A stretch of DNA of 64,000 bases, from the NCBI RefSeq assembly GCF_021134715.1, contig NC_060022.1:1183001-1247000 (forward strand), read 5' to 3'. Under the pieces are notes generated by a model. It saw only the letters and a program-made list of their open reading frames with translations. It did not search any database and had not been told where the DNA came from. The position numbers were made by a program, and so were the translations under genes. How positions within the stretch are numbered: position 1 is the stretch's first letter; each line of letters opens with the position of its first letter. The DNA comes from Daphnia pulex. Lineage: Eukaryota; Arthropoda; Branchiopoda; Diplostraca; Daphniidae. This document shows, piece by piece, positions 31,546-54,028 of this stretch.

Positions 31546-32401
31546 CCAAATTTCCAAGATTACTAGATTTTTGGGGGTGATATAATAAACCATTCACTTT
31601 ATCAGATATAGGCTATCTAATCGAGATAGTCCTTCGGTAAACAAAATGAACTTTTTCACTCGTTCCAAGTTTATCAAAGTAGCGAAGTAATATTTTAGCG
31701 CACCCACATTATTGGTTATCAATTAATGTTCTCAATTAATGGTTTCGCGCACCCACATTATTCGTTATCAATTAATGTTCATTTCATTTTCAAATTCTTT
31801 TTGACTTAAAATATTGATTCAAGAATAGAATATGAGCTTGACTGATTAATTGATTTCAAACATTTAAACATGCCAAAATGTTCACGTCTTTAAAAATTGA
31901 ATAATGAAAGTATTTTAATCTCAAACGTTTTTCAAGAACCTGAATCTTTCTAGCGCATCATGATAAATGCGACTTCTATTATTCTCAATGTAAAATTATT
32001 TGAGATACAAAGTAATGGCAGAATTTTTGCAGAATTGAAGGCAGAATATGAAAATAGAATTTTGCATCATAAAGGTAGAGAACGCATTTTAGCACCGTAT
32101 TATTATGGATAAGATCTGGTACGAAACTGTTCAAATTTCGATAACGTATTTGTGTTACAATCACATCCTTCAACCCTTGCTAAAAAATTCTCTGGTTCAT
32201 TTAATAGGCCTGTAACGTTCATTTCTCTTAAATTTCCTAGTCCTTCAAGTTATTTGCAGTATAACTATTCAACTAAAATGGTTAAAATGATAATTTGTTT
32301 TTGTATTTACACGTATTTATCGACACCAAACACATAATAATGTCGATGGCAGAGAATACATGAGAATAAATTAATTTTGCAATCAGGTCAATATCAATAA
32401 C
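31546..32401. other. Intergenic half of a tandem duplication (cp8 side)
   Basis: About 31620-32401 resembles 33350-34065 in order and sequence, for example AAAGTAGCGAAGTAATATTT and GAGAACGCATTTTAGCACCG occur in both. With the genes, this gives a repeated unit of about 1.67 kb. No other gene was seen. Confidence 0.65.
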
Positions 32402-33174
32402 TTAATAGATCTTGTAGCCCTTTCCGTTGAAGGGAATGTGGACGGGGGCAACGGGGAGTTCGTATTCATGGACGGGAGCAACTGGGAGCTCGTATTCATG
32501 GACGGGAGCGACGGGCAAATGGTCACCCTTTGGCTGGAAACCGGCATCATCGGCAGACCAGGTCAAAGTGAATTTCTGGCCTTCAGGGGAAACCCAGTAA
32601 GAAGATCCCTTGTTGGTGTTGCCCATAACGTCCTCGTAGGTGGCTTTGCCGTAAGAGTCATACTTGACTCCTTGCATCTTCTTCTGGACCTGAGATTCCT
32701 CGCGGGTGGTGTAGTCAGACTGGGCGGAGCTGTTGAACACAATCAAATTTCTCTTTAGTAAATTCCGATACTGTTTAAACAGCTATTGAAAGTAAATACC
32801 TCCATTGGCTGCTGCCATCGAGATTGCGCTCATCAGATTGGCTGGTGATGGTGATGTCAGCGTATTTGTTATCCTTGTATGCTGGGGCAGAGTAGGCAGG
32901 TGCTGGGTAAGCTGGGGCAGAGTAAGCTGGGGCAGAGTAGGCTGGGGCAGAGTAGGCTGGTTTGGAGTAGGCCGGTGCGGAGTAGGTGGGTGGCTTGTAT
33001 GCCGGCTTGTAGCTGGCAGCGGTAGCAACGGCTAAGACAGCGGCGATAATGAACTATGAAATAACATTGCACATAATTAATTTGAAGTTGATAAAATTTT
33101 GTGACTCTTATTCACTGATTAATACTCCATCGTATTTTTCAATTTATTATTACGTTGTTACTTACCAGCTTCAT
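32402..33174 (-). CDS. cp9, RR-1 cuticle protein
   Basis: Exons in transcript order are 33166-33174, 32800-33053 and 32402-32729, giving 196 residues. The leader MKLFIIAAVLAVATAA is followed by SYKPAYKPPT without the usual PS, a 6-nt difference shared with cp11 and cp14. The Tyr/Pro/Ala repeat region is mid-length. The junction reads SSAQSDY instead of SYAQSDY, as in cp12. The core contains TWSADDAGF. Two PVAPVHEYEL repeats lead to PVHIPFNGKGYKIY. Intron 2 is a mosaic: its exon-3 side matches cp8 and its exon-2 side matches cp14. Confidence 0.93.
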
Positions 33175-33303: not shown

Positions 33304-34065
33304 CTGCCAAGTTTTCAAGAATGCCAGATTTTTTAGGGTGAAACAATGAACCATTCACTTTATCAGATATTTCTAATCGAGATAGTCCTTCGGTTAACAA
33401 AATGAACTTTTTCACTTGTTCCAAGTATATCAAAGTAGCGAAGTAATATTTTCATGCATCAACATTATACGATATCAATTGATGTTCATTTCAAATACTA
33501 TTTGACTTAAAATATCAATTCAAGAATGGAATGTAGTCTCTTCGGATTAATTGATTTCAAACATTTAAACGTGCCGAAAAAATGTTCACGTCCATACAAA
33601 TTGAATAATGAAAGTATTTTAATCTCAAACGTTCGTCAAGAATCTGAATATCTGTAGCGCATGATAAATGCGATTTCAGTTATTCTTACTGTAAAATAAT
33701 TTGAGATACAAAATAAATGGGCTAGACGGAATTTTGCATCTTAAAGGTAGAGAACGCATTTTAGCACCGTATTATGGACGTCTGATACGAAACTGTTAAA
33801 TTTCGATTTCACGCATTTGTGTTACACATACATCCTTAAACCATTTCTTTAAAAATCTCTAGTTGATTTAATAGGCCTGTAACGTTCATTTCTCTTAAAT
33901 TTCATTGTTCTTCAAGTTTGCAGTATAACGGTTTAACTAAAACGGTTAAAATGATAATTTGTTTTTGTATTTACACGTATTTATCGAAACCAAACACATA
34001 ATAATGTCGATGGCAGAGAATACATGAGAATAAATTAAATTTGCAATCAGGTCAATATCAATAAC
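33304..34065. other. Intergenic half of a tandem duplication (cp9 side)
   Basis: This is the partner of 31546-32401. It has accumulated substitutions and small indels, so the duplication is not brand-new. Confidence 0.65.
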
Positions 34066-34808
34066 TTAATAGATCTTGTAGCCCTTTCCGTTGAAGGGAA
34101 TGTGGACGGGGGCAACGGGGAGTTCGTATTCATGGACTGGGGCAACTGGGAGCTCGTACTCATGGACGGGAGCGACGGGCAAATGGGCACCCTTGGGCTG
34201 GAAACCGGCATCATCGGCAGACCAGGTCAAAGTGAATTTCTCGCCTTCAGGGGAAACCCAGTAGGAAGATCCCTTGTTGGTGTTGCCCATAACATCCTCG
34301 TAGGTGGCTTTACCGTACGAGTCGTATGCGACTCCTTGCATCTTCTTCTGGACTTGGGATTCTTCGCGGGTGGTGTAGTCAGATCCAGCGTAGCTAAAGA
34401 ACAACAAGATAATGGTTAACAGAAAGCAAATTTTAATAATGCGTAAAACTGAACAGAATTTGCTATTGTAATGACGCAAAAAACAGAATAATAAATACCT
34501 CCATTGGCTGCTGCCATCGAGGTTGCGCTCATCAGATTGGCTGGTGATGGTGATGTCGGCGTATTTGTTATCTTTGTACGCTGGTGCAGAGTAGGCAGGT
34601 GCGGGGTAAGCCGGGGCAGAGTAGGCTGGTTTGGAGTAGGCCGGTGCGGAGTAGGTGGGTGGCTTGTATGCCGGTTTGTAGCTGGACGGAGCAGCGACAG
34701 CAACGGCCAAGACAGCGGCGATAACGAACTAGTCGAAAAATTGGGCAAAAAATATTTAGTTAATAAAAATTTTGTAAAATAAGTTCTGCTGTTGCTTACC
34801 AATTTCAT
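34066..34808 (-). CDS. cp10, RR-1 cuticle protein
   Basis: Exons in transcript order are 34800-34808, 34499-34728 and 34066-34393, giving 188 residues. The Tyr/Pro/Ala repeat region is the shortest form, equal in exon length to cp13. The junction reads SYAGSDYTTR, mixing the AGSD of the cp1 group with the DYTTR of this group. The linker has VAYDSYG where relatives have VKYDSYG. KGAHLP replaces KGDHLP in the core, an unusual loss of Asp next to the conserved His. Two PVAPVHEYEL repeats precede PVHIPFNGKGYKIY. Intron 2 is of the class shared with cp13 only. Confidence 0.93.
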
Positions 34809-35727: not shown

Positions 35728-36450
35728 TTAATAGATCTTGTAGCCCTTTCCGTTGAAGGGAATGTGGACGGGGGCAACGGGGAGTTCGTATTCGTGGACG
35801 GGAGCAACTGGGAGCTCGTAGACATGGACGGGGGCAACGGGCAAGTGGTCACCCTTGGGCTGGAATCCGGCATCATCGGCGACCCAGGTCAAAGTGAATT
35901 TCTCGCCTTCGGGGGAAACCCAGTAGGAAGATCCCTTGTTGGTGTTGCCCATAACATCCTCGTAGGTGGCTTTGCCGTAAGAATCGTATTTGACTCCTTG
36001 CATCTTCTTTTGGACCTGAGATTCCTCGCGGGTGGTGTAGTCAGACTGGGCGTAGCTGTTTGACACAATCAAATTTATTTTTAGTAAATAGCAAGACTCT
36101 TTAAACAACAAGATGTGGTTTTTACCTCCATTGGCTGCTGCCATCGAGGTTGCGCTCATCAGATTGGCTGGTGATGGTGATGTCGGCGTATTTGTTATCC
36201 TTGTATGCTGGGGCAGAGTAGGCAGGTGCGGGGTAAGCTGGGGCAGAGTAGGCCGGGGCAGAGTAGGCTGGTTTGGAGTAGGCCGGTGCGGAGTAAGTGG
36301 GTGGTTTGTACTCCGGCTTGTAGCTGGCAGCGGCAGCAACGGCCAAGACAGCGGCGATAACGAACTGCAATATCGAAATTTTGCTTTTAGTTTCATTAAT
36401 TTTTTGTTATTACCAATGGTCGACATTGTTTAGTCCCTTACCAGCTTCAT
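35728..36450 (-). CDS. cp11, RR-1 cuticle protein
   Basis: Exons in transcript order are 36442-36450, 36126-36364 and 35728-36055, giving 191 residues. The leader ends AAAASYKPEY, lacking the PS dipeptide. KPEYKPPT replaces the KPAYKPPT of its relatives and matches cp12. Two PVAPVHxYEL repeats lead to PVHIPFNGKGYKIY. Intron 2 differs at only a few bases from cp8 and cp12. Overall length and exon sizes equal cp14, its counterpart in the duplicated triplet. Confidence 0.93.
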
Positions 36451-36478
36451 GTTGTATTCGGTTGGCTTGGGAAACAAC

Positions 36479-36554
36479 TGATACTTTTGATGTTTCATTT
36501 CTTCACTTATATATCGTTGAGTGAAGGGTAGATAACATTCATGTGACCCAATTG
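36479..36554 (-). promoter_or_regulatory. cp11 core promoter
   Basis: The initiator A is at 36479, the TATA box at 36506-36513, and CAATTGGGTCA on minus at 36544-36554, about 70 bp upstream. A GAAAGTGAGAGTGAGAGTC tract on minus lies near 36600. Confidence 0.75.
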
Positions 36555-37080
36555 TAAAGTGACCGATAGTCTCATTTTTGGGCGTAGTACAAATAAGACT
36601 CTCACTCTCACTTTCAACCCTATCCCCTTAAGAAAACAATTTTTTCCTGTTTGGTAATGAGGATGTCTATTATCTTTTTTCCGTCAGTACGTGATGTTAC
36701 ATATAAGTAGCGATTGCTAATATCTTATACTGTTTTTTAAAACTGAAAGATTAGTAAAAATTTGCAGGGATAGAAATTTCCGAATAACTTTGACAGCTTT
36801 TAAAAGCAATTTATTGTTTAATATTTAATTGTTATACCATTAGATGTAACGAACACTAACATTAATTTCTTTGTTCTGTCTAGTTAAACAAATCATTAAT
36901 ATCAGTCATGATGATTAAACATTGAAAGTAAAAGCACATATCTCATCATTTCTTTTGATACGATGAGCCAAGAAATCACAGATTGATTTTATCGAAAAGC
37001 AAAAGCCTAACCAACCATGGCCTAGAATAATATTGGTTAACCAATGAAGGAGAGAAATGGCCATCGCAAACACGCATGAA
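36555..37080. other. Head-to-head intergenic region between cp11 and cp12
   Basis: cp11 and cp12 are divergent, so this is shared upstream DNA. It resembles the cp14/cp15 intergenic region, notably just before cp12. No gene was seen. Confidence 0.55.
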
Positions 37081-37168
37081 AAATTGGGACAACAGAGTAA
37101 ACGAAACCGTACGTGGCACTCCCTTCTCCGGGTATATAAACTAGTCTAAAACCGATTTTAAGCCGTCA
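37081..37168 (+). promoter_or_regulatory. cp12 core promoter with variant element
   Basis: AAATTGGGACA at 37081-37091 has one change in the half-site. TATATAAA is at 37133-37140 and TCAGT has its A at 37168. Confidence 0.7.
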
Positions 37169-37199
37169 GTTGTTCAACTTATCAACTTCAACTATCATC

Positions 37200-37964
37200 A
37201 TGAAGCTAGTAAAAAAAAAATAAGTTTTTATAAGCATAATGTGATGTGAATTTTAATCTTTTTGTGGAAACCTTGTTTTTAGTTTATCATCGCCGCTGTC
37301 TTGGCCGTTGCTGCCGCTGCTACATCCAGCTACAAGCCGGAGTACAAGCCACCCACCTACTCGGCACCGGCCTATTCCAAACCAGCCTACTCTGCCCCAA
37401 CCTACTCTGCCCCAACCTACTCTGCCCCAGCCTACTCTGCCCCAGCCTACTCTGCCCCAGCTTACCCCGCACCTGCCTACTCTGCCCCAGCATACAAGGA
37501 TAACAAATACGCCGACATCACCATCACCAGTCAATCTGATGAGCGCAACCTCGATGGCAGCAGCCAATGGAGGTAAAAACCACATCTTGTTGTTTAAAGA
37601 GTCTTGCTATTTACTAAAGAGAAATTTGATTGTGTCAAACAGCTCCGCCCAGTCTGACTACACCACCCGCGAGGAATCCCAAGTCCAGAAGAAGATGCAA
37701 GGAGTCAAGTACGACTCTTACGGTAAAGCCACATACGAGGATGTTATGGGCAACACCAACAAGGGATCTTCCTACTGGGTTTCCCCCGAAGGCCAGAAAT
37801 TCACTTTGACCTGGGTTGCCGATGATGCCGGATTCCAGCCCAAGGGTGACCACTTGCCCGTTGCCCCCGTCCATGTCTACGAACTTCCAGTTGCCCCTGT
37901 CCATGAGTACGAACTCCCCGTTGCCCCCGCTCTTCCCTACAAACGCACTGGAGCTGGATATTAA
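37200..37964 (+). CDS. cp12, RR-1 cuticle protein with the longest N-terminal repeat
   Basis: Exons 37200-37208, 37283-37572 and 37643-37964 encode 206 residues. Exon 2 (290 nt) is the longest of the cluster because of extra YSAPT/YSAPA units. The leader is MKLFIIAAVLAVAAAA and the mature start is TSSYKPEYKPPT, with Thr for Pro. The junction is SSAQSDY. Two PVAPVHxYEL repeats precede ALPYKRTGAGY. The second intron is base-identical to that of cp8 in the opposite orientation, which points to exchange between inverted paralogs. Confidence 0.93.
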
Positions 37965-38636
37965 GTGCAGTCGCATATTTATTAATAGCAGATAGTTTAA
38001 GTGTTTCATGTCAATGACTATTAGAACAATGTAAAAATTTATTGATTGAGAAAACGATAAACGCAAATTTTCTTTTTCTTAATTCAATTTTGCTGCCATT
38101 GATAATTAATATTCATCCTTGATACCGACAGAGTGATGTAAAATATTCTCTTTTTTCATTCGTTGAATGGTTTTTTCGCTTTGGGGGTTTACAATGGATT
38201 CATTTATATTTATCGATGGCAAAGGAATTCAAGAAATTTTTGCAGATATGAATTAAGCGCTTTAAGAACGACTTCACAGTTTTTTGTTTCAATTAATAAA
38301 ACAAAATTCAGTTGTATATAAAAAGCCAATAAATTAAAAATTCCATTAGCTTTCTTCTACTGTAATGCGTAAAGGTCACGTGTGAAAGTGTTTGTTTACG
38401 CGAAGCCCTACTACTTTGGCACATCATAAAGTTCTGTGAATTTTGAGAAATTTGAACAATCATTATATTTCTGGTGATAGGCAGAATCTGATCAAAAGAA
38501 TTTCAAAATAAAATTACGTTCAATGTTCTCAGTTCATATTTACAAGTACATCAACAGGTATAACGCCGTTGCAAAGAATGCACGGATATAATATAATGAT
38601 AAAGAGAAAATCAGGAGTTAATGGCTTTATTCAGGA
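37965..38636. other. cp12 3' flank, no supported gene
   Basis: TCACGTGTGAAAGTGTTTG near 38380 recalls the distal motif of the cluster. No coding region was seen. Confidence 0.45.
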
Positions 38637-38710
38637 AAATATCAATAACTTAATAGATCTTGTAGCCCTTTCCGTTGAAGGGAATGTGGACGTTACCAAC
38701 GGGAGATCGT
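38637..38710 (-). pseudogene. Truncated cuticle-gene 3' end
   Basis: On the minus strand this reads the tail PVHIPFNGKGYKIY and stop, with the same ATATCAATAAC flank as cp9, cp10 and cp13. The similarity ends abruptly after about 60 bp; the core and all upstream exons are missing. It sits about 340 bp outside the left border of the giant inverted repeat and is probably the stump of a paralog lost during that rearrangement. Confidence 0.8.
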
Positions 38711-39051
38711 AGTATAATATTATCAAATGGTATACCATGTTTACTTTTTTTTATCAAGAGACTATTATTTTATATTAGACTTTATATGATAAATGCTAAT
38801 CCAGTAACATTTAGATAACATCACTTGGAATAATACGTGATGCGTGGTTATTTCAATGTCGAATTAATAATTATTTAGATTTGGTGCAATGCATCACTAA
38901 AGATGGCTCATTTAATCATAATTTTGTAATGTCCTATTTTTATTTTTTAATTGTTGAATAAATAGAAGCTCGACGAATTATAAGAGAGGTATTCGAGGAA
39001 AAAAAATGTTAACTTTTTAAAAACGTTATGGATAGACTACAGCTACACTAG
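38711..39051. other. No supported gene; left flank of inverted repeat
   Basis: AT-rich sequence with no recognised frame. Confidence 0.5.
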
Positions 39052-40350
39052 TGTGTCCGTTAATTAAACCGTTAACGGTTTAGTAAAATATAAACTTTTT
39101 CTCAAATGCCCCACACTAGATGGCGAAGTCGTCGAGCTATGCCCATCTGGCCATCTCGCGGCAGTCATGGAAGTTGTTGCATGGGGTGGTTGTCTGATGT
39201 TTCTTTCTTTAACCACATTAAAAAAATATGGCGACCACGTCGACCACGTTGCGAGATGCCGGCTGCCGGGATTTATTTTTCGCCATTAATAAAATAATAA
39301 TTACCGCCTACTTCAACAATTGGTGTCGTACGAAAACAGCAGTGCAATGTACACCATAGAGAGTGTGGGTTGTGGTCGTGGAGAAAATCAGTTTCAACTA
39401 GTTAAATTAATAAGAATAGTAGAACTTCAGTGAAGGGTGTAGTAAAAGTTGAGTTCAGAATTTAAAATCTTTCAATAATTCTGAATGTGCTAAAAATCGA
39501 ATTTTTTATTCTTTTTAAGTTCCAGACCTACAACATTTTCTTGTTTTAGTTGCAAGTGGTTGCAATGATGGTGTACCAATGGTGAAGGCAGAATGAGAAA
39601 CAGGTATTGCTTTCATCTTCTCATGTCTCTTTCACACGCTAAAGTTCTGGATTTTTTGTCAAGCTTACATATGCTCTGAAAGTGAATAACCAATAATGCC
39701 TTATTGGCTCTTAACTAGCATCTGATCGTGTGTAATGCTTTTTTACAAATTATGTCATTTTTGAAAGAATAAGGGTAAGAAATATAGGTAAGAATAAGCT
39801 AGATGAACATAAAGAGAAGAAAGTAAAATTCAAGTAAAGATATTAAGTAGAACTGTGCTTTATTTGTCCCACCTCCACCAGGTTTTAGGACAAGAAAAAT
39901 CACAGTGACACAAGAAATAGTCATCCTGTTAGGTTGTGTGTATTTTTTGTTTTTAAATAATGACTGAATATTTTAATGAAATTCCTCATTTATTTTCTCA
40001 GACTCTGGAATATTTTGCATTTCAACCGATATTGGTGCAAATACTGATTCTATAAGTCACATCTTTGCAGAAGAAACTGGCAGCCTGGAAGAAATTGGCG
40101 GTGGTGATTGGTGTGAATTTAGAAATTGAGGCAGGTGTTTCCCACAATGTACTTGACGAAAGAACTTGAAGGTGCATACAATAAAACTTAGTTTTTGTCA
40201 TAAAAGATGCTCATAGTTCTTTATATTTTAGGCACTGTAAGCCAATGCTATCTGGAATTTTGCTAGAAATGTCTTTCAGACAGTCATAAACGTTGAGAAA
40301 AAAGAAGAACCTGAACTCAAAATAGAACCAGAAGAACCATATAGCATATA

Positions 40351-40584
40351 CTACCGGTTGAACTCTCCAAGACCCACGTGCTCAAAGACTACATGTATTA
40401 TTATGGCATGCTCTTGTTCATTTACGACTAATGGTTTTGGTGGAGTCATCAAATTGGGCATTGGAAAGCTAGCTGCAAAGATTTGTAAACTAGTACACGA
40501 GCAATCCACTTCCGGTCGGTAAGAACCAGGCGTCCTAGAAGAGACACTATAAATGTAAATGTCGTTCAAGTTTTCCATTACCAA
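40351..40584 (-). CDS. Unrecognised frame, left arm copy
   Basis: A 77-codon frame starting with ATG, containing VSSRTPGSYRPEVDCSC and ending in an acidic/hydrophobic segment. The right-arm copy at 48973-49206 differs by a single residue near the C-terminus (GEFNR here, GELNR there). I do not recognise it. Conservation is no proof of coding, because the whole arm is this similar. Confidence 0.25.
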   Translation of the reverse strand: MVMENLNDIYIYSVSSRTPGSYRPEVDCSCTSLQIFAASFPMPNLMTPPKPLVVNEQEHAIIIHVVFEHVGLGEFNR

Positions 40585-42599
40585 ACCTTTATCGGCTTCA
40601 TTATCTCAAAGGACAAAGGCATAGAGGAATAGGAAACATTTTCATTTCTTTCCCAATCCAAAGCTAATGAGCAAATTTTTCTTTCTAACTAATCCGGAAA
40701 CACAAAATGATGAAATTCGTCTTTACGGTCAACTAGTTCGACCGTATCATGAGTGAACCATCTAGCCTGATGTCATTCAAGATTTCCATCACGGTCCCAA
40801 GAATAATTCCCCGGCTTGGATTTTCTCATTGGCCTGACCTCTCTTAAAGAGTCTCTCGTTTTTCCGCACAAACGGCTTTGTGTTGCTACAGAAAGGGTGT
40901 TGTTTCTCCGTAATGAAAGTTAAAAGGTAATTCTTGTTTTGGATCCCTTAAGCTTACTGAATCTAAAATATTTGTGTATGAATTTACAGGGAGACTAGCC
41001 TATAATTTCCACATCGCCTGAAACTGCTGTCCATTTTGCTAGTCTTCGTTATAGAAGAAATTCTGCCATCTCTTCATCGATGAGAGACTTGCTGTAACGT
41101 TTTGTCAGAAACACTACAGTTAAAGTAATAATGAATGCTAGGTTTTAGCGAACTTAAATGCGTTGTTCAAGTTTTGTGAGTAGACCAGTCCTGCAATCAA
41201 ATACTGAGTTTTGAGACGTGTCAAATAGATGGCGTGTTGATTGTATCAGTAATCGGCTATGGCGGTTTGCTGTCAAAAGTTAAGCTTTCTTTTCTTCGAA
41301 AATTAATAATGAATTCATAGGTAAATTCGAATTTTTCGTCCGTAACTTGTCGGTGATGTGTTCTATTCCGTGTATATGTTAAACTCTAATGTTTCTCATC
41401 AACTTACAGTAGGAAACGTGTAAGGGTCGTGCAGCCTATTGTCAAAGTTCTATTTTGTTCAAAATAATTGTATTCTACTGAATGTGCCATCGAAATTATG
41501 CAGGTATCAACCAATTACACTAGTTTTATTACAGTATTGCTGAAACATATATTCTTCTCGTCTTTTTTATGAGGTGTCATCATAATTATCTGCTGTTTGT
41601 ATTGGACTTGCTAGATCAACAACCTCAGCATAGACCAATCTCTCATTCCATCATTCTAGATAAACTTGGATAACTGATGGGTGGTTTCATGTGTAAGTTC
41701 ACTTATCATGTCCCTGAACTTTTTTGTTGCAGTTCAATATGTATTTAAATTATTGATCTGCACTTATGTTTATCTAATAACGTTTAAGAGAGGATTTCGA
41801 GTGTATAGTGTATACTGATAAGTGTGTGTTTGTGTCTGTTTAATTATTCTTTTAGATCATAGATGACAAGCACATTGATGACACAAATTATAAACAAGTT
41901 GACTTATATATTTTTTTTTTTAATTTTATTTACAGGTTCTAAATTAGAGGTTTCTAAATTGGCATGACCAACTTTATGAGAAGTCATGTCCTTTCAAGAA
42001 AAGGACAAGGACTATACAGTCCTTCCTTGTTTGCTAACCTGTTGGCTGCAACCCTTGAATCTCCCTTATTTACTTCCTTACACGGGCCCTCATGATTTGA
42101 GGTAATACTTACTGTCGCTACAATCTTGTTTGAATATTATTTTCATCTAAATAAATGTTCATTCTCCTTACAGAATAATCCTTCACTACTGATCATGGAC
42201 TTCATCCATTGGTGAAAACGGACGAGAGAATGCTGTAATCCAAGACTGATAAATTGTGTAGTTAGATTCAATTACAAGTGCATATCTGGGCTCCCTTCTT
42301 TTCTGTGGCCCCGTTTCCCTAACTAACCACTAACCAACGCCCGCCGGTGGTCACTCACCCGCTGTGAAACCAGGAGGAGGGGAGGGCTCTGGTCGAACGG
42401 GGACTTGGAAGGCGCATGATCCGATGAAAACTTTTGGAGGGTCATGAGTCTAACCCGGAAGCCTAGTATGACTACATCTCCCCGGAAAAACTTGCCTCGT
42501 ACTTCTCTCTTCTTCTCGGTCCAGATAAATATCTCTGGGGGCCGTAGACATATCCTATAACAGCATGTGCGAGTTAAACAATGCAACCCACTACCCAAT

Positions 42600-42957
42600 G
42601 AAACAAAAAGCCATGGTTTATTATTTGCGCAAATCTCCGTCAGTCAAGTTACAAATTTTTCTAATTCAACAACTCGCGTAGAATTTTGCATCTAGTCTAT
42701 TAGTGCAAATCGCGATTCCATGTGTTTGGTAGTTAAGAAAATGGTTGTTTAAAAAACAAACAATGGGGTGTTCTGAATAGCCAAAAAAACTCACCATTGT
42801 ATGTTTTTTAAACAACCATCTTCATACCAAACACATAGGATCGCTATTTGCACCAGTAGACTAGATGCAAAATTCGACAGAAGTTGATGAGTTTGAAAAA
42901 CTTGTAACTTGACTGACCCAGATTTCCGCAAAACTAAACCATCGCTTTTTGTCTCAT
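42600..42957. repeat. Nested imperfect palindrome, left arm
   Basis: The two halves (about 42608-42770 and 42795-42955) are inverted copies of each other: AGTCAAGTTACAAATTTTTC and TGGTTGTTTAAAAAACA in one match the reverse complements in the other. The hairpin stem is about 160 bp with a short loop. It looks like a foldback miniature element and is present in both arms. Confidence 0.75.
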
Positions 42958-43254
42958 TGCCGCAGCGGTGGTGGCGGGTTGCGTTTAACTCGTACAGAAG
43001 AAAAACGTGTTGTACCGGACGCTCTGTTTATTGAATTTTTTTAACATTTTAAAAAGAAAATAAAACAAATTGGTTCATATAACATAATTATTTTTATTTA
43101 TTACAGATATTACATGGATAAGGTTTAGCATTGGTTTTTAGGGTTGAGGGTATAAATTTAGGGGTTAGTAGGTGTATGTTTTCGGGGTTTGAAGGATTGG
43201 AAGGTATATGTTTGTGGGGTTTGGAGATTAATTGGTAGGGCAATATTTGTAGGG

Positions 43255-43569
43255 TTATAGATTAACTGAATTTTTATCCAAACTTGAAATATCCTCCCTA
43301 CCTCCTCCACTTTCCTTTCGCAATCCCGGAAACATGTTTATTATTTGTTGACATACACATCCCATATTTGTTTTTGTTGCTTCTGAACTTATAAACGGTA
43401 AACTGCAATAGTCACGATGACAATTTAACAAAATATGATGCAACTTCGGTAACACAACATCAGCACCAGGGAACGGCCAATTGAACTTGATGTAGAAAGA
43501 TCTTTCACCAACATAGGCTGCAACAACGTGCCACATCGGACAGCAACTACGCGAACATACACGATAAAC
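43255..43569 (-). CDS. Exon-like cysteine-rich fragment, left arm
   Basis: After a splice-like TATAG the minus strand reads VYRVCSRSCCPMWHVVAAYV and continues with a Trp/Phe-rich stretch, KFNWPFPGADVV, and further cysteines to a stop at 43255. A copy in the right arm near 46000-46150 has a similar start but has drifted. It may be a later exon of the divergent gene that starts at 44513. I do not recognise the family. Confidence 0.3.
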   Translation of the reverse strand, partial: VYRVCSRSCCPMWHVVAAYVGERSFYIKFNWPFPGADVVLPKLHHILLNCHRDYCSLPFISSEATKTNMGCVCQQIINMFPGLRKESGGGREDISSLDKNSVNL

Positions 43570-44291
43570 CTATAACCGAAATTAAAAGAATCAATCTTCA
43601 GCATCATGGAAATTCTGTCTGAAAGGACGAATTAATGACACTTTGTGGTTTTAGATAAACCAAATATTCTGAAAACAAATATTCTGAAAACAATATCTTA
43701 TAGCTATTGTTGGAACAAACAAAAATGTGTGATTTAGACTGCAACAAAGAAGAAAGTGAAGCTAAGACTGTAACTGGATGTTAATCCTGCTTTTAAAAAA
43801 ATCAATTACTATCAAGCAGTGAATTCTCATGTGACGATTAAAAAAAATTACACAACTATAGCTAAACTATGAAATCTCTCAGTATCAGTTAGCAAGCTTT
43901 TTGAATGAGACAGACAATTAGAAAGTTGATTGAAATTTAATTACTTCAGTTGTTTGTGTTTCTTCATTTGACGAAAACACAGCAGTAGGAACACCCTTTA
44001 CCAGCTGGCTGCATCAAATCCATGTGTACATTGGGTAGCAACAAAGAAGCTTAGACTTTACCAAACTGTTTATCACAAAAAAAAACCAATACTATCAAGG
44101 AAACAGCGTCTCAAATGACAAAAACAAAAATGGCAGAAATTAAAGTAAACTGCACAATCCTTCAGAAAATGTTGCCAAAGGAACAGCTAGAAAGCTTTTC
44201 CAAGGTAGACAAATAAAGTTCTACAGCTAGGCAAGTTAAGAAATAGTCACCGACTAACTAAGTCTCACATTAGAAAGTTGAACATATTTAC

Positions 44292-44513
44292 CTGATTTGT
44301 TCTTAAGTGTTTCTTACAAAACGTACAGCCAGTACAGGAAAAAGAGATGACATCTTGGCAAAATGTACAGATGCTCAGGTTCTGCTCAGGCCACATGATC
44401 AGCTGAAATTTCCAAGTAGAAATTATTGGCTAGGTTATCACGCAACCATCTAAATTCACACAAAAAATAATTAAGATTCAGTAACATCTAACAATCCAAA
44501 CGGGAAATACCAT
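44292..44513 (-). CDS. First exons of an unrecognised cysteine-rich gene, divergent from mS35
   Basis: A clean 37-codon phase-0 exon lies at 44402 to 44292 with AG before and GTAAAT after. It reads LIMWPEQNLSICTFC and then SCTGCTFCKK, giving C-x2-C and C-x2-C-x2-C spacing that suggests metal binding. An ATG at 44513-44511 followed by GTATTT would supply a one-codon start exon in the right phase; that is inference. The start is about 215 bp from the mS35 start on the other strand, so the two would share a bidirectional promoter. Downstream exons may include 43255-43569. Family unknown. Confidence 0.4.
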
Positions 44514-44728
44514 TTTTATGAAGAAAAATGTGAGGAAGGAAAATACGCCGTACGGATTGTCTAACGATACGCCATACGCTTTCAATCAGTGCTCGAAAAC
44601 AAATGGCGGCGGTCTTGCGTAACGAAGACTTAGATCCATATCAGTAGTTGTAAATGTGAATCATAGATGGCGACGAAACTTGTATTTTAGTCTGCTAAAA
44701 AAGAGGAAAAAAAAAAAAGTCGAATAAA

Positions 44729-45530
44729 ATGTCTGCAATTGTCAACCTACGTGTTTTCCGTAATTTTCAGCAGTTTGTGCCAATTAATAGACCCATTTCT
44801 AATTATCCCACATCATTTCGCAAAAATGAAGAAATTCAAAAAGTGGATGGTAACTTTCATCTGTTCAAACTTAGTATCATAAGATTATTTACACGTGAAT
44901 GGCATGTGCTGTAACCGTTCGCTGGATCTGTGCCCCAACAAGTCGTTAAATATGAGATCATACGGTCGCAAAGTATACAATAGAGCAGCAGTTCATCCTC
45001 CACGTTCCAACAAAATGCCAACTGATCAAGACTGGTCCTCAGTTTGGCCAGTTGCAAGATCTTTCCATCCAGCTAGTGTCCCGCTGCCCTTGCATCAGGG
45101 CTGGGTTGTCCTTGGTGCAACACCACCCGGCAAATTTGCCAATGCAGAGTTGATGAAGATCCCCAACTTTCTTCACTTGACACCACCCGCTATTGAGAGA
45201 CAATGCCAAGCATTGAAAAGTGAGAACCCTGCAGTGTAATAGATATTTTATTAACAATTTAACCATTATTTGTTTGTAGAATTCTCAATTCTGCACAGAG
45301 TGCCGTAAGAGTTGGATCTCAACAAAAAGGTTGAAAATCATTTACCCATTACAATCACAACTAGTGATTACCTCAATTCTTTCCCCTCATTGAGTGATGC
45401 CCGAGCCAGAATTGTAACACTCCAGGTCTGAAAAAAAGAAAAAAAACTGCATTTGATATCCTGTTATAAGTAACTCTTTTCTTCCCTAATGTAGGTGAAA
45501 TTGAGCTCTTTGAATTGGACAGCCATGCCA
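44729..45530 (+). pseudogene. MRPS35: Mitochondrial ribosomal protein mS35, truncated pseudogene
   Basis: Recognisable blocks are: an N-terminal Arg-rich targeting-like sequence from ATG 44729 to about 44849; a second exon ending at 45219 with PTDQDWSSVWPVARSF, VPLPLHQGW and KIPNFLHLTP; an exon at 45280-45425 with ELDLNKKVENHLP and DARARIVTLQ; and the start of the next at 45495 (VKLSSLN). These match the conserved core of mS35, a small-subunit protein of the mitochondrial ribosome. The spliced frame has an in-frame TAA at 45306-45308. The register is lost one base after SSLN, and the rest of the gene is replaced by the right arm of the inverted repeat. Introns are retained, so it is not a processed copy. 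A functional copy presumably lies elsewhere. Confidence 0.85.
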
Positions 45531-46599
45531 AGGATAAATTCTTCTTTTTCCTGTACCGGCTTTACGTTTTGTAAGAAACCCTTCAGAACTATTCAGGTAA
45601 ATATGTTCAACTTTCTAACTGTGAGACTACAGACTTAGTTAGTCGGTGACTATCTCTTAACTTATTTGTTGTAGAATTTTCAGTTGTCTACCTTGTAAAT
45701 GCTTGCTAGCTTTAGGTTCTTTTGCAACTTTTATTCTGAAGAATTGTGTTTGCATAGTTTACTTTAACTTATGTATTTTCTGTTTTTGTAATTTAAGACA
45801 TTGTTTTCTTGATAGTTGATAGTAATTGAGTTTTTTTTTTATAAATTGGATTACTAGTCTGGTAAAAGTATGAGCTTCTTTGTTGCCGCCCAACGTACAC
45901 ATGGATTTGATGCAGCCAGCTGAGGGCTTTAACTCTTGTAAATAACATAAAGTGACATTTATTCATCTTGATTAATTCATTTCATTTTGTTTATAGGTTT
46001 AGTGTTTTATGTTCGCGTAGTTGCTGTCCGATGTGGCACGTTGTTGAAGCCTATGCTGGTAAAAGATCTTTCTACATCAAGTTCAATTGGCCGTTCCTTG
46101 GTGCTGGTGTCGTGTTACCGAAGTTGCATCATTATCTTGTTAAATTGTCATCGTGACTATTGCAGTTTACCGTTTATAAGTGAAGAAGCAACAGAAACAA
46201 ATACGGGATGTTTATGTCAAACAAATAATATACATGTTTTTTGGGGGAAAGTGGTGGATGTTGGAGGGAGGATATTTCAAGTTTGGATAAAAATTCAGTT
46301 AATCTATAACCCTACAAATGTTGCCCTACCAATTAATCTCCAAACCCCACAAACATATACCTTCCAATCCTTCAAACCCCGGAAACATCCACCTACCAAC
46401 CCTTAAATCTACACCCTTAACCCTAAAAACCAATGCTAAACCTTATCCATGTAATATCTGTAATAAATAAAATAAAACATTATATGAACTAATTTATTTT
46501 TTATTTTTAAAATGTTAAAAAAAATCAATAAACAGAGCGTCCGGTTCAAGACGGTTTACTACTGCACGAGTTTAAACGCAACCCGCCACCACCGCTGCG

Positions 46600-46960
46600 G
46601 CAATGAGACAAAAAGCGATGGTTTAGTTTTGCGGAAATCTGGGTCAGTCAAGTTACAAATTTTTCAAACTCAACAACTTCTGTCGAATTTTGCATCTAAT
46701 TTACTGGTGCAAATAGCGATCCTATGTGATTGGTAGTTAAGAAGATGGTTGTTTAAAAAACAAACAATGGTGAGTTTTTTTGGCTACACAGAACATCCCA
46801 TTGTTTGTTTTTTAAACAACCATTTTCTTAACTACCAAACACATGGAATCGCGATTTGCACTAATAGACTAGATGCAAAATTCTACGCGAGTTGTTGAAT
46901 TAGAAAAATTTGTAACTTGACTGACGGAGATTTGCGCAAATAATAAACCATGGCTTTTTG
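46600..46960. repeat. Nested imperfect palindrome, right arm
   Basis: Right-arm counterpart of 42600-42957. It has the same inverted halves around AAACAACCAT and its complement, and the loop carries small differences from the left copy. Confidence 0.75.
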
Positions 46961-48972
46961 TTTCATTGGGTAGTGGGTTGCTTTGTTTAACTCGCACATG
47001 CTGTTATAGGACATGTCTACGGCCCCCAGAGATATTTATCTGGACCGAGAAGAAGAGAGAAGTATGAGGCAAGTTTTACTGGGGAGATGTAGTCATACTA
47101 GGCTTCCGGGTTAGACTCATGACCCTCCAAAAGTTTTCATCGGATCATGCGCCTTCCAAGTCCCCGTTCGACCAGAGCCCTCCCCTCCTCCTGGTTTCAC
47201 AGCGGGTGAGTGACCACCGGCGGGCGTTGGTTAGTGGTTAGTTAGGGAAACGGGGCCACAGAAAAGAAGGGAGCCCAGATATACACTTGTAATTGAATCT
47301 AACTACACAATTTATCAGTCTTGGATTACAGCATTCTCTCGTCCGTTTTCACCAATGGATGAAGTCCATGATCAGTAGTGAAGGATTATTCTGTAAGGAG
47401 AATGAACATTTATTTAGATGAAAATAATATTCAAACAAGATTGTAGCGACAGTAAGTATTACCTCAAATCATGAGGGCCCGTGTAAGGAAGTAAATAAGG
47501 GAGATTCAAGGGTTGCAGCCAACAGGTTAGCAAACAAGGAAGGACTGTATAGTCCTTGTCCTTTTCTTGAAAGGACATGACTTCTCATAAAGTTGGTCAT
47601 GCCAATTTAGAAACCTCTAATTTAGAACCTGTAAATAAAATTAAAAAAAAAAATATATAAGTCAACTTGTTTATAATTTGTGTCATCAATGTGCTTGTCA
47701 TCTATGATCTAAAAGAATAATTAAACAGACACAAACACACACTTATCAGTATACACTCGAAATCCTCTCTTAAACGTTATTAGATAAACATAAGTGCAGA
47801 TCAATAATTTAAATACATATTGAACTGCAACAAAAAAGTTCAGGGACATGATAAGTGAACTTACACATGAAACCACCCATCAGTTATCCAAGTTTATCTA
47901 GAATGATGGAATGAGAGATTGGTCTATGCTGAGGTTGTTGATCTAGCAAGTCCAATACAAACAGCAGATAATTATGATGACACCTCATAAAAAAGACGAG
48001 AAGAATATATGTTTCAGCAATACTGTAATAAAACTAGTGTAATTGGTTGATACCTGCATAATTTCGATGGCACATTCAGTAGAATACAATTATTTTGAAC
48101 AAAATAGAACTTTGACAATAGGCTGCACGACCCTTACACGTTTCCTACTGTAAGTTGATGAGAAACATTAGAGTTTAACATATACACGGAATAGAACACA
48201 TCACCGACAAGTTACGGACGAAAAATTCGAATTTACCTATGAATTCATTATTAATTTTCGAAGAAAAGAAAGCTTAACTTTTGACAGCAAACCGCCATAG
48301 CCGATTACTGATACAATCAACACGCCATCTATTTGACACGTCTCAAAACTCAGTATTTGATTGCAGGACTGGTCTACTCACAAAACTTGAACAACGCATT
48401 TAAGTTCGCTAAAACCTAGCATTCATTATTACTTTAACTGTAGTGTTTCTGACAAAACGTTACAGCAAGTCTCTCATCGATGAAGAGATGGCAGAATTTC
48501 TTCTATAACGAAGACTAGCAAAATGGACAGCAGTTTCAGGCGATGTGGAAATTATAGGCTAGTCTCCCTGTAAATTCATACACAAATATTTTAGATTCAG
48601 TAAGCTTAAGGGATCCAAAACAAGAATTACCTTTTAACTTTCATTACGGAGAAACAACACCCTTTCTGTAGCAACACAAAGCCGTTTGTGCGGAAAAACG
48701 AGAGACTCTTTAAGAGAGGTCAGGCCAATGAGAAAATCCAAGCCGGGGAATTATTCTTGGGACCGTGATGGAAATCTTGAATGACATCAGGCTAGATGGT
48801 TCACTCATGATACGGTCGAACTAGTTGACCGTAAAGACGAATTTCATCATTTTGTGTTTCCGGATTAGTTAGAAAGAAAAATTTGCTCATTAGCTTTGGA
48901 TTGGGAAAGAAATGAAAATGTTTCCTATTCCTCTATGCCTTTGTCCTTTGAGATAATGAAGCCGATAAAGGT

Positions 48973-49206
48973 TTGGTAATGGAAAACTTGAACGACATTT
49001 ACATTTATAGTGTCTCTTCTAGGACGCCTGGTTCTTACCGACCGGAAGTGGATTGCTCGTGTACTAGTTTACAAATCTTTGCAGCTAGCTTTCCAATGCC
49101 CAATTTGATGACTCCACCAAAACCATTAGTCGTAAATGAACAAGAGCATGCCATAATAATACATGTAGTCTTTGAGCACGTGGGTCTTGGAGAGTTAAAC
49201 CGGTAG
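48973..49206 (+). CDS. Unrecognised frame, right arm copy
   Basis: A 77-codon frame, mirror of 40351-40584. See that entry; only one residue differs. Confidence 0.25.
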   Translation: MVMENLNDIYIYSVSSRTPGSYRPEVDCSCTSLQIFAASFPMPNLMTPPKPLVVNEQEHAIIIHVVFEHVGLGELNR

Positions 49207-50481
49207 TATATGCTATATGGTTCTTCTGGTTCTATTTTGAGTTCAGGTTCTTCTTTTTTCTCAACGTTTATGACTGTCTGAAAGACATTTCTAGCAAAAT
49301 TCCAGATAGCATTGGCTTACAGTGCCTAAAATATAAAGAACTATGAGCATCTTTTATGACAAAAACTAAGTTTTATTGTATGCACCTTCAAGTTCTTTCG
49401 TCAAGTACATTGTGGGAAACACCTGCCTCAATTTCTAAATTCACACCAATCACCACCGCCAATTTCTTCCAGGCTGCCAGTTTCTTCTGCAAAGATGTGA
49501 CTTATAGAATCAGTATTTGCACCAATATCGGTTGAAATGCAAATATTCCAGAGTCTGAGAAAATAAATGAGGAATTTCATTAAAATATTCAGTCATTATT
49601 TAAAAACAAAAAATACACACAACCTAACAGGATGACTATTTCTTGTGTCACTGTGATTTTTCTTGTCCTAAAACCTGGTGGAGGTGGGACAAATAAAGCA
49701 CAGTTCTACTTAATATCTTTACTTGAATTTTACTTTCTTCTCTTTATGTTCATCTAGCTTATTCTTACCTATATTTCTTACTCTTATTCTTTCAAAAATG
49801 ACATAATTTGTAAAAAAGCATTACACACGATCAGATGCTAGTTAAGAGCCAATAAGGCATTATTGGTTATTCAATTTCAGAGCATATGTAAGCTTGACAA
49901 AAAATCCAGAACTTTAGCGTGTGAAAGAGACATGAGAAGATGAAAGCAATACCTGTTTCTCATTCTGCCTTCACCATTGGTACACCATCATTGCAACCAC
50001 TTGCAACTAAAACAAGAAAATGTTGTAGGTCTGGAACTTAAAAAGAATAAAAAATTCGATTTTTAGCACATTCAGAATTATTGAAAGATTTTAAATTCTG
50101 AACTCAACTTTTACTACACCCTTCACTGAAGTTCTACTATTCTTATTAATTTAACTAGTTGAAACTGATTTTCTCCACGACCACAACCCACACTCTCTAT
50201 GGTACATTGCACTGCTGTTTTCGTACGACACCAATTGTTGAAGTAGGCGGTAATTATTATTTTATTAATGGCGAAAAATAAATCCCGGCAGCCGGCATCT
50301 CGCAACGTGGTCGACGTCGTCGCCATATTTTTTTAATGTGGTTAAAGAAAGAAACATCAGACAACCACCCCATGCAACAACTTCCATGACTGCCGCGAGA
50401 TGGCCAGATGGGCATAGCTCGACGACTTCGCCATCTAGAGTGGGGCGTTTGAGAAAAAGTTTGCCAACGGTTTAACGGACT

Positions 50482-50854
50482 AAAATAAAAATAAAAAAAA
50501 TTAAATAATGATTAATTTCTGTAATAAAACCTATAGTAAACGAAATTTTATTCCTACCTTTTTAGTGCAGTGCAGTGCTTTTAATGCATTTATCTACAAG
50601 CCCTTTTTAATGTACAGTTTCCGTGCAGGATACTGTACGCATTACTTAGTTTTATAAGCCATTCGTTACAACTACCGCTTTATTTTATATTCTTAAGTTT
50701 ACATTGCCACCATTTAATAAAATGTTTGACTATGATATTTGTTTTTCATCGTATATTTATTTACATGTATTTATCGATACCAACACCATAAAAGTACTAT
50801 GGCATACAATAAATCGGAATAAATTACAATTGCAATAACGTCAATATCAATAAC
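50482..50854. other. No supported gene; right flank of inverted repeat
   Basis: AT-rich DNA leading to the 3' end of cp13. The last 100 bp resemble the 3' flanks of cp9 and cp10 (TATTTATCGATACCAA is close to theirs). Confidence 0.5.
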
Positions 50855-51611
50855 TTAATAGATCTTGTAGCCTTTTCCGTTGAAGGGAATGTGGACGGGG
50901 GCAACGGGAAGTTCGTATTCGTGGACGGGGGCAATGGGGAGAACGTACTCATGGACGGGAGCAACTGGGAGCTCGTAGACGTGGACGGGAGCGACGGGCA
51001 AATGGTCACCCTTTGGCTGGAAACCGGCCTCATCGGCAGCCCAGGTCAAAGTGAATTTCTCGCCTTCAGGGGAAACCCAGTAGGAAGATCCCTTGTTGGT
51101 GTTGCCCATAACATCCTCGTAGGTGGCTTTGCCGTAAGAATCGTATTTGACTCCTTGCATCTTCTTCTGGACCTGAAATTCCTCGCGGGTGGTGTAGTCA
51201 GACTGGGCGTAGCTATAAAACAACAAGATAATGGTTAACAGAGAACAAATTTTAGAAATACACAAAACCAAACAGAATTCGCTATTGTAATGACGCGAAA
51301 AACAGAATAGTTTTTACCTCCACTGGCTGCTGCCATCGAGGTTGCGCTCATCAGATTGGCTGGTGATGGTGATGTCGGCGTATTTGTTATCCTTGTACGC
51401 TGGGGCAGAGTAAGCTGGGGCAGAGTAGGCTGGGGCAGAGTAGGCTGGTTTGGAATAGGCCGGTGTGGAGTAGGTGGGTGGCTTGTATGCAGGCTTGTAG
51501 CTGGATGGAGCAGCCACAGCAACGGCCAAGACAGCGGCGATAACGAACTATTTGAAAAAGATTTAGTTAAAGAATTTGAGCTAAAGTTCTGTTTTTGCTT
51601 ACCAATTTCAT
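50855..51611 (-). CDS. cp13, RR-1 cuticle protein
   Basis: Exons in transcript order are 51603-51611, 51318-51547 and 50855-51212, giving 198 residues. Exons 1 and 2 are equal in length to cp10, but exon 3 is 30 nt longer because of one extra 10-residue repeat (PVAPVHEYVL, then PIAPVHEYEL with Ile for Val). REEFQ replaces REESQ in the linker, and YSTPAY occurs once in the N-terminal repeat. The core has TWAADEAGF. The tail is PVHIPFNGKGYKIY. Intron 2 is of the cp10 class. It is the first gene of the second triplet copy. Confidence 0.93.
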
Positions 51612-51645
51612 GTTGTATTCGATTTGTTTACTGTTGTTGAACAAC

Positions 51646-51724
51646 TGATACTTTTCATCTGTGAGTCTGGGTCTTATATAGTCGAGAGAATGGAAATTTC
51701 AGGTCTTTCGGGGTGACCTAATTT
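51646..51724 (-). promoter_or_regulatory. cp13 core promoter
   Basis: The initiator A is at 51646, the TATA box at 51673-51680, and AAATTAGGTCA on minus at 51714-51724, a full consensus match about 73 bp upstream. Confidence 0.8.
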
Positions 51725-52436
51725 GTTAGTACATCATGGCTTCCAAGGTGGCATTATTATTCTATCTATAGATAGTTTTATGCGTAACAACGCATTCTCT
51801 TTGCAACTATTACCAGTTCTGATTTATCAAATCCAACTGATTGTTACAGAGAAACAAGTATTTGAAATAAATTCATCTATTGACTTTAAGTACCAAGTGA
51901 TACAATTTCTCTATTAGCATTGATCCCTTTTTATGAAAACATTTGCGCCCCAAATGAAAATTATAAAAGCTAATCTAATATTGCGCTTCAGAATAGTTTT
52001 GTCATTTCATGGAAAAACACTTCATAGCGTTCACCGAGTTTCTTTTTTACTGAACCGAGATAGAAAGCAAACTTTGCATCGTTTTGCTGAAGCTACCAAC
52101 ACTTTTACGCAGATTTCACCAATACACATACATACAAAATTTTATTTTCCTGAAACAATTGCAGTTGTAATATTTTGATCACGGAATTCTTTTGCGCGTT
52201 GATTATATTCATTTCTGGGTTTAATTAGTTTAGATGTCTTATAATAATGACAAGCGCATTTTGTTCGTGATTCCTTTTGTAAGGTAACATATGAAAATTG
52301 AAAATGAAGCAGCTTACGCTGTAACACTAACGTTTCGATGTTCTGCATTTATATTTACGCCAACACATACAATGTCAAGAATGTTGACAAAGAACACATT
52401 GGAAATAATTTATATCTTCAATCACGTATCAATAAT
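51725..52436. other. No supported gene between cp13 and cp14
   Basis: It is related to 34923-35727 at both ends, the middle being diverged. No domain-bearing frame was seen. Confidence 0.55.
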
Positions 52437-53146
52437 TTAATAGATCTTGTAGCCCTTTCCGTTGAAGGGAATGTGGACGGGGGCAACGGGGAGTTCGTAT
52501 TCGTGGACGGGAGCAACTGGGAGCTCGTAGACATGGACGGGAGCGACGGGCAAGTGGTCACCCTTGGGCTGGAAACCGGCATCATCGGCAGCCCAGGTCA
52601 AAGTGAATTTCTGGCCTTCAGGGGAAACCCAGTAGGAAGATCCCTTGTTGGTGTTGCCCATAACATCCTCGTAGGTGGCTTTACCGTACGAGTCGTACTT
52701 GACTCCTTGCATTTTCTTCTGGACCTGAGATTCCTCGCGGGTGGTGTAGTCAGACTGGGCGTAGCTGTTTTACACAATCAAGCAGTTGCTAAGTAAATTC
52801 CGATACTGTTTAAACAGCTATTGAAAGTAAATACCTCCATTGGCTGCTGCCATCGAGATTGCGCTCATCAGATTGGCTGGTGATGGTGATGTCAGCGTAT
52901 TTGTTATCCTTGTATGCTGGGGCAGAGTAGGCAGGTGCTGGGTAAGCTGGGGCAGAGTAAGCTGGGGCAGAGTAGGCTGGTTTGGAGTAGGCCGGTGCGG
53001 AGTAGGTGGGTGGCTTGTATGCCGGCTTGTAGCTGGCAGCGGTAGCAACGGCCAAGACAGCGGCGATAATGAACTGCATTGGCAGAATTTTGTGGTTAAC
53101 TTTAATTTTAAAATATGAACCTAAGGTAGTTCCTTACCAGCTTCAT
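52437..53146 (-). CDS. cp14, RR-1 cuticle protein
   Basis: Exons in transcript order are 53138-53146, 52835-53073 and 52437-52764, giving 191 residues. It matches cp11 in exon sizes and flanks, but its leader (MKLFIIAAVLAVATAA) and intron-2 half match cp9. The N-terminal repeat region is the same as cp11. The core reads EGQKFTLTWAADDAGF. Two PVAPVHxYEL units lead to PVHIPFNGKGYKIY. Affinities to two different paralogs over different segments indicate exchange after duplication. Confidence 0.93.
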
Positions 53147-53174
53147 GTTGTAGTCGGTTGATTTGTGGAACAAC

Positions 53175-53260
53175 TGATATCTTTGATCGTTCTTACCTGA
53201 GCTTATATAGTCAGGTGAAGGGCAAACGCTAGACATAGAAGCGTTCATGTGACCTACATG
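53175..53260 (-). promoter_or_regulatory. cp14 core promoter
   Basis: The initiator A is at 53175, the TATA box at 53202-53209, and CATGTAGGTCA on minus at 53250-53260, about 80 bp upstream. GAGAGTGCAGTG on minus lies near 53310. Confidence 0.75.
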
Positions 53261-53949
53261 TTCAAGCTAGACAGTTTATGTTTGGGCGTAAGCAAACCAA
53301 GGAAACACTGCACTCTCACTTTTGTCATTAGCCTCTTTAGAAACACTGAGCATTCATATTTTTAGATGTTAGATTTCTTACGTACACTTTTTTAACACGC
53401 AAAGTTTTTTCGAATAAAATTTCTTGTGTTTTTTTCTCTATCACGAATAAAGATATTATTATAAGTAGGCTAGCGAATAATAATTGCTCACACTGCCGTT
53501 TTCTACTATAAAAATGTAGTGATTCCATCTTTGATATAGCATGTAATGGATGAACAGATTCACCAAAAGTAACGAAAACATTTTGTTTCGTGAATCACAT
53601 CGGTTTCTTTTTACATGAGTTACAATCTCAAAACGTATTGCAAAAGAAAACATTCGTATACCCAGAGGGAATAATGAAGAATATATTGACTTAAATGGCA
53701 TATAATAAAGTTGCCTAATTGAGTTGATTATTGAGCTAGAATAAGTTCATAGCAAGTACTATAAATTTAAGATTGATAATAGTAAAAGGATTGGAAAGTA
53801 GCCAACCAAATATTTACTTTCAATATGATTTCGCCGATAGCAAAGTTGGAATCAAGAAATAATAGTATCATAGCCTTGTTCTTAAAGAAATATTATGGTT
53901 AGCTATTGAGAGATAGTGAAATGGTCATCGCTAGCTGTCATGAGCGAAG
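53261..53949. other. Head-to-head intergenic region between cp14 and cp15
   Basis: Counterpart of the cp11/cp12 region. GATAGTGAAATGGTCATCGC near 53920 corresponds to sequence before cp12 and to the TAGTGAAAT motif of cp2, cp6 and cp7. Confidence 0.55.
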
Positions 53950-54028
53950 AATCTGGGTCAACAATAACGAAATAGACACACCCCTTCTCTAGGTATAAAA
54001 CCCCCGCGAGATTAGGTCTTAGACATCA
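53950..54028 (+). promoter_or_regulatory. cp15 core promoter
   Basis: AATCTGGGTCA is at 53950-53960 (full consensus), TATAAAA at 53994-54000 and TCAGT has its A at 54028. Confidence 0.8.

Follow-up and report, generated by a model that had tools for sequence, protein, structure and literature searches.

What is the giant inverted repeat that lies in the middle of a cuticle gene cluster of Daphnia pulex, and does it stand alone in this genome? The repeat is found in a stretch of 64,000 nucleotides (the window; positions without a contig name refer to it), which corresponds to C6:1183001-1247000, C6 being contig NC_060022.1 and representing 5.4% of an assembly of 133,188,837 bases in 13 contigs. 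We propose that it is probably one copy of a non-autonomous family of giant foldback-like elements, whose arms are homogenised by gene conversion and which carry pieces of host genes. Foldback-like is to be taken as a provisional working class.

A facing repeat and its relatives

The inverted repeat is real. By self-BLAST, a left arm at 39092-43596 (+ strand) matches a right arm at 45970-50462 (- strand) in the facing arrangement 39092-43596 / 50462-45970, over 4513 columns and with 97.76% identity. This match scores 7749 bits, with 73 mismatches and 28 positions in gaps; when 36000-54000 was shuffled 20 times by a Markov model, no inverted match exceeded 45.4 bits. This bears out the giant repeat of the original prediction, and the repeat makes up most of the element, as the long inverted terminal repeats of foldback elements do. 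Inside the main repeat lies a second, decayed pair of inner arms, 44002-44345 (+) and 45922-45543 (45543-45922 on the - strand), with 79.6% identity. The dimensions first proposed, arms of about 5 kb around a spacer of about 1.1 kb, hold when these inner arms are counted, as the centre between them (44346-45542, +) measures 1.2 kb, but not for the well-matched arms, which are 4.5 kb long and 2.4 kb apart. Each arm also contains a short, unstranded palindrome, self-inverted with about 84% identity (42596-42959 in the left arm, counterpart 46601-46968 in the right arm).

Looking for the arm elsewhere in the genome, as had been suggested by way of a check, placed the window repeat in a large dispersed family. 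With 41000-45000 as query, at least 41 places in the same genome reached a score of more than 2000 bits; C6 has 31 of these places, and they include 11 facing pairs, the window's among them; with 39 of 660 first-look candidates scored, this count is a lower bound and is skewed to the copies most like the query. The part common to at least 40 other places is the arm core at 41132-43628 (+; right-arm counterpart approximately 45971-48425), most matches starting at 41132, and the centre is itself repeated elsewhere in the genome (54 matches). When 3 mismatches at most are allowed, a 47-bp tag taken from the arm (42385-42431, or 47133-47179 in the right arm) has 254 occurrences in the genome (137 in forward and 117 in reverse orientation), and its reversed control has none. 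The 100 of these places that are listed all match the tag exactly. C6 is enriched in the tag, with at least 45 of the 254 occurrences versus approximately 14 expected from its share of the assembly. There are, then, many dispersed copies of one structure, the larger ones including those at C6:698-707 kb, C6:304-313 kb, C9:7956-7965 kb and C9:8229-8238 kb.

These copies also have a fixed polarity. Among the 100 tag places listed, 25 neighbours lie less than 12 kb apart; 23 are facing, 2 are head-to-tail (forward-forward) and none face away, the facing blocks being spaced by 2.1-9.8 kb. The structure therefore has an inside and an outside, and such a polarity fits one kind of element better than random local inverted duplications.

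Arm-to-arm exchange and a conserved block

How the arms of a copy relate to each other was examined on 30 arm cores, two from the window and 28 from elsewhere in the genome, among which nine pairs had both arms at hand. In all nine, the partners are mutual best matches and also sisters in the IQ-TREE tree (bootstrap 98-100). A repeat moving merely as a unit would instead group left arms together across copies. Likeness is thus greater within a locus than between loci, and in the window it has edges. Per 200-bp bin, the two arms are 99-100% identical over 39200-42400 (+; 97.5% at the inner edge), 97.5, 98.5, and 95.5% identical in the bins at 42400, 42600, and 42800, 90-92% over 43000-43600 and 69-84% over 44000-44400, with 89% at the outer edge. 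Within 41132-42300 there is a single arm-arm mismatch in 1107 columns, together with 52 positions whose state is private to both window arms and absent in the 28 others; 42850-43590 holds 52 mismatches in 727 columns and one shared private position. Only 1 of the 53 mismatches falls in 41132-42300, where 71% would be expected under even divergence (binomial P 2.7e-27). Over 42850-43590, the left arm shares 96.3% identity with the element at C6:1145434 but only 92.8% with its partner in the window. We read this pattern as gene conversion between the arms, with 39200-42400 as the presumed tract.

The structured mismatches and the shared private states also argue against a mis-assembly of the window repeat, which seems unlikely on this sequence evidence. 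That the assembly made the structure by a fold-back join is very improbable: the window arms differ by their 73 mismatches in a mosaic, the flanks differ and at least 10 other facing pairs exist, each with its own sequence. Taken alone, a neighbouring and even larger palindrome at C6:1133825-1152886, approximately 30 kb outside the window, could be such a join, its arms of 9.35 kb being 99.78% identical and separated by a spacer of 0.37 kb.

One part of the arm departs from the general divergence between elements. In a comparison of 21 elements (one arm per pair, 75-bp windows), mean pairwise identity is 95-99.6% over 42257-43007 versus 85-93% over most of the core, and peaks at 99.5-99.6% over 42332-42482. 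This conserved block extends over 42300-43007 in the left arm (+; 95-99.6% between elements) and over 46553-47264 in the right arm (-; coordinates projected from the repeat alignment), and includes the tag in both. With the 311 bp of 42290-42600 as query, all scored places are at least 99% identical (best 40 of 432 candidates), and over 42400-42850 an arm's own partner is often not its best match, all copies being alike there. Such near-invariance is not expected from decay after insertion: copying between loci may keep the block uniform, selection may act on every copy, or the block may be of more recent origin than the sequence around it. A structural RNA was considered and rejected, as no Rfam family reached its gathering score in the window (sub-threshold miRNA models match only the short palindrome), neither strand of the block folds better than its shuffled versions (z 0.52 and 0.84) and ARAGORN detected no tRNA in it.

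Host genes inside and around the element

The centre of the window copy carries part of a host gene, that of the mitochondrial ribosomal protein mS35: an open frame of 118 amino acids at 44883-45239 (+) matches mS35 chains by phmmer (E 2.2e-24, residues 32-128 of 323). A short exon ahead of this frame, from the ATG at 44729, is a guess from reading the sequence. Genome-wide, 61 stretches match the mS35 piece, with several to a locus; 38 of them contain stops (manual count). In the neighbouring palindrome C6:1133825-1152886, exons of aminopeptidase N (an M1 aminopeptidase; PF01433, PF11838) are present in both arms, and an intact-looking phospholipase C gene lies beyond the left edge. The same aminopeptidase segment is found at C3:11747502-11752084 (91%), C11:4030024-4033031, C6:708787-711226, C6:1008430-1011212, and other places. 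The C3 copy combines, within 13 kb, the aminopeptidase segment, the mS35 piece (11755017) and an inverted arm piece (11758835). Captured host gene fragments are thus observed both in the window and in a related copy. A 0.9-kb sample of another centre, C6:702000-702900 in the copy at C6:697-707 kb, is found again as an inverted copy of itself, at C6:724337-725326 and in a repeated part of C10; that this sample is also a gene piece is a guess.

Two further observations concern the surroundings of these copies. A 284-amino acid frame near one mS35 copy of C5 (L048:3-854) resembles, by eye, the reverse transcriptase of a non-LTR retrotransposon. At C6:1138187-1138792, a repeat of 600 bp lies beside an arm core, with many copies elsewhere at 77-79% (best 40 of 700 first-look candidates scored), several of them as outward-facing pairs approximately 3 kb apart (for example, C7:266175/269223).

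The genes that flank the window copy encode cuticle proteins (PF00379). Homology to cuticle genes ends at 38711, in the 3' part of one gene, and picks up again at 50682, in the region downstream of another gene copy, so that the insertion here is not a clean one. The remnant on the left (38597-38711, -) is the 3' end of a cuticle gene broken off where the element begins; it matches 32351-32464, 34047-34128, 52385-52499, and others, all of which end at or near the equivalent of 38711. On the right, a cuticle gene piece with a Chitin_bind_4 domain lies at 50855-51313 (-; PF00379, E 2.7e-10). Between the remnant and the left arm, the diverged outer edge at 38712-39091 (+) is common to other copies from 38861 onwards, and 38712-38860 may belong to the element as well. 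The outer right edge (50463-50681, -) is shared up to 50613, beyond the right end first proposed (50481), with one other place, 50526-50613 matching C6:4264422-4264516 with 76% identity. Two candidate ends were rejected. Position 39052, the left end first proposed, lies inside the homology, which in five other copies begins at 38860/38861. Position 41132, where most core matches start, is excluded by other copies that extend further out and by an abundant, unrelated-looking repeat that shares sequence on both sides of it; it is merely the point where the window copy departs from the others. Near the outer edge, a perfect 16-bp palindrome, AAACCGTTAACGGTTT, at 39066-39081 is followed by CTAGATGGCG-type sequence, and recurs in many other copies.

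The original prediction held that the repeat may have driven the duplication of the cuticle genes and the conversion between inverted genes, and this finds no support here. The element interrupts an existing cuticle gene copy (38711 / 50682), and is therefore younger than that gene. As to conversion, two direct genes on the same side of the element (30662-31192 / 35765-36295) share 96.4% identity, versus 92-94% for genes that are inverted or across the element. These values suggest exchange throughout the cuticle cluster, with no sign of the repeat as its cause, to which the repeat may nevertheless have contributed. Between 30.6 and 54.8 kb of the window, likeness among cuticle genes of either orientation forms a patchwork of 86-96%.

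Origin of the family and known elements

In the scenario that we favor, units with a short centre of captured host DNA between two long facing arms would have dispersed as a family and, having no recognisable transposase of their own, would have been moved by something else. Once a copy is placed, its arms are homogenised against each other by intrachromosomal gene conversion, as the sequence pattern shows, and neighbouring or inserted DNA taken up by one arm could be copied into the other. The anatomy of the neighbouring palindrome suggests that its aminopeptidase N segment may have reached both arms by such a transfer. In the window, the element has broken a cuticle gene, with the loss of some cuticle sequence at the site.

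Several observations weigh against this scenario. As the original prediction already stated, no transposon protein is recognisable in the repeat, none of five open reading frames from the repeat and its edge being transposase-like, and neither Pfam scans of open reading frames nor genome searches for MULE and P-element domains detected a transposase within the family. The MULE domain (PF10551) has 55 matches in the genome and the P-element domain (PF12017) has five, none of either on C6, most element centres being unread. One pair of edges was compared (C6:3524262 / 3539711) and showed no clear target-site duplication, the sole shared word of at least 5 nucleotides being TTATT, in AT-rich sequence. 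The left edge of the neighbouring palindrome, C6:1133825, lies inside a host open reading frame (C6:1133384-1133974, PF17900), as no classical transposon end would do, and outward homology of the window copy fades at 38861 and beyond. The open frames of C6:702000-702900, the only other centre sampled, had no Pfam match above the cut-off. Homogenisation is also uneven: at C6:1864196/1869586 and C6:3280714/3286109, one arm is partly nearer to another element. At their outermost ends, the arms of C6:4247800/4264700 share only 76% identity, and those of C6:3524000/3539900 share 95% over 452 columns.

Some of these observations would also follow if the palindromes had formed in place and were not transposons, an arm site prone to recombination or replication producing local inverted duplications, by which flanking host DNA is copied outwards, with conversion keeping the arms alike. 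We consider this possible, though rather unlikely. On either side, the neighbouring palindrome extends by 5 kb into exons of aminopeptidase N, and it ends within coding sequence, the comparison of one edge pair and the transposase searches gave nothing, and centre sequence of the C6:697-707 kb copy recurs approximately 14-20 kb away, at C6:724337-725326. However, formation in place does not by itself explain homologous cores with a single polarity and the same mS35 centre on many contigs, nor the presence of mS35 alongside the aminopeptidase segment on C3, a different contig. Given this recurrence and the C3 co-occurrence, some movement is needed.

Alternatively, the family may belong to an ordinary autonomous superfamily, of the Mutator or P type like known foldback elements, whose transposase simply escaped sampling. 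MULE domains do exist in the genome, but the contig richest in the family has 0 of the 55 MULE and 0 of the five P-element matches, and by eye no match to either domain lies within 20 kb of the tag places (100 listed of 254). Given that approximately three of the 55 MULE matches would be expected on C6 by length, their absence there is weak evidence alone; we nevertheless hold this explanation to be improbable.

The conserved block itself might also be the motor, a site repeatedly cut or copied and homogenised genome-wide, in which case the family would be a selfish conversion drive and not an element moved by a transposase. The block would then drive arm conversion, the outward growth of palindromes into host DNA and their spread. 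A block 99.5% identical in a core of 85-93%, the 254 copies of the tag and a neighbouring palindrome growing into coding sequence are all compatible with such a motor, and copies inserted long ago would not stay alike if selection acted on transposition alone. We regard this proposal as doubtful, and return to non-autonomous foldback-like elements, with arms homogenised by conversion, as the more convincing description.

How does the family thus described compare with known systems? Pack-MULEs and other gene-capturing transposons carry host gene fragments with introns between their terminal repeats. The Daphnia elements resemble them in carrying such fragments, but hold host DNA within both arms as well, and the MULE-domain search showed no link to Mutator. 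Large facing arms kept alike by conversion are also known from sex-chromosome palindromes; unlike these, the Daphnia arms are homologous across many places on many contigs. Foldback elements of Drosophila are likewise close. Galileo, of the P superfamily, and other foldback elements have long, variable repeats and many copies without transposase, and an insertion in one terminal repeat may pass to the other (PMC4168063); for Tetris, the repeats of one copy group together in two of three complete copies (PMC4079207). Galileo, FB, and Tetris, as described there, share with the Daphnia family facing long repeats of varying length and structure, short or non-coding centres and copies without a transposase. 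The Daphnia arms, however, are 4.5-9.35 kb long, whereas the second-longest terminal repeats of Galileo are approximately 1.6 kb, and they are most conserved in an internal block, whereas in Galileo the ends are the more conserved part (PMC4168063). They differ further from the Drosophila foldback elements, in so far as these accounts describe them, in that the centre is host gene sequence and that neither a target-site duplication (at one edge pair) nor a transposase was found.

Searches of the open-licence literature brought up no account of a comparable family in Daphnia. Foldback elements and palindromes kept by conversion are each known; here they are combined in one high-copy family, dispersed over many contigs, with host genes, with arms of up to 9 kb and with a conversion tract that can be measured. 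Because it offers many replicate palindromes of differing age in one genome, the family could allow the rates of arm conversion, palindrome growth, and gene capture to be measured directly, and a separate explanation is called for by the internal block, which stays almost invariant although the copies around it have decayed.

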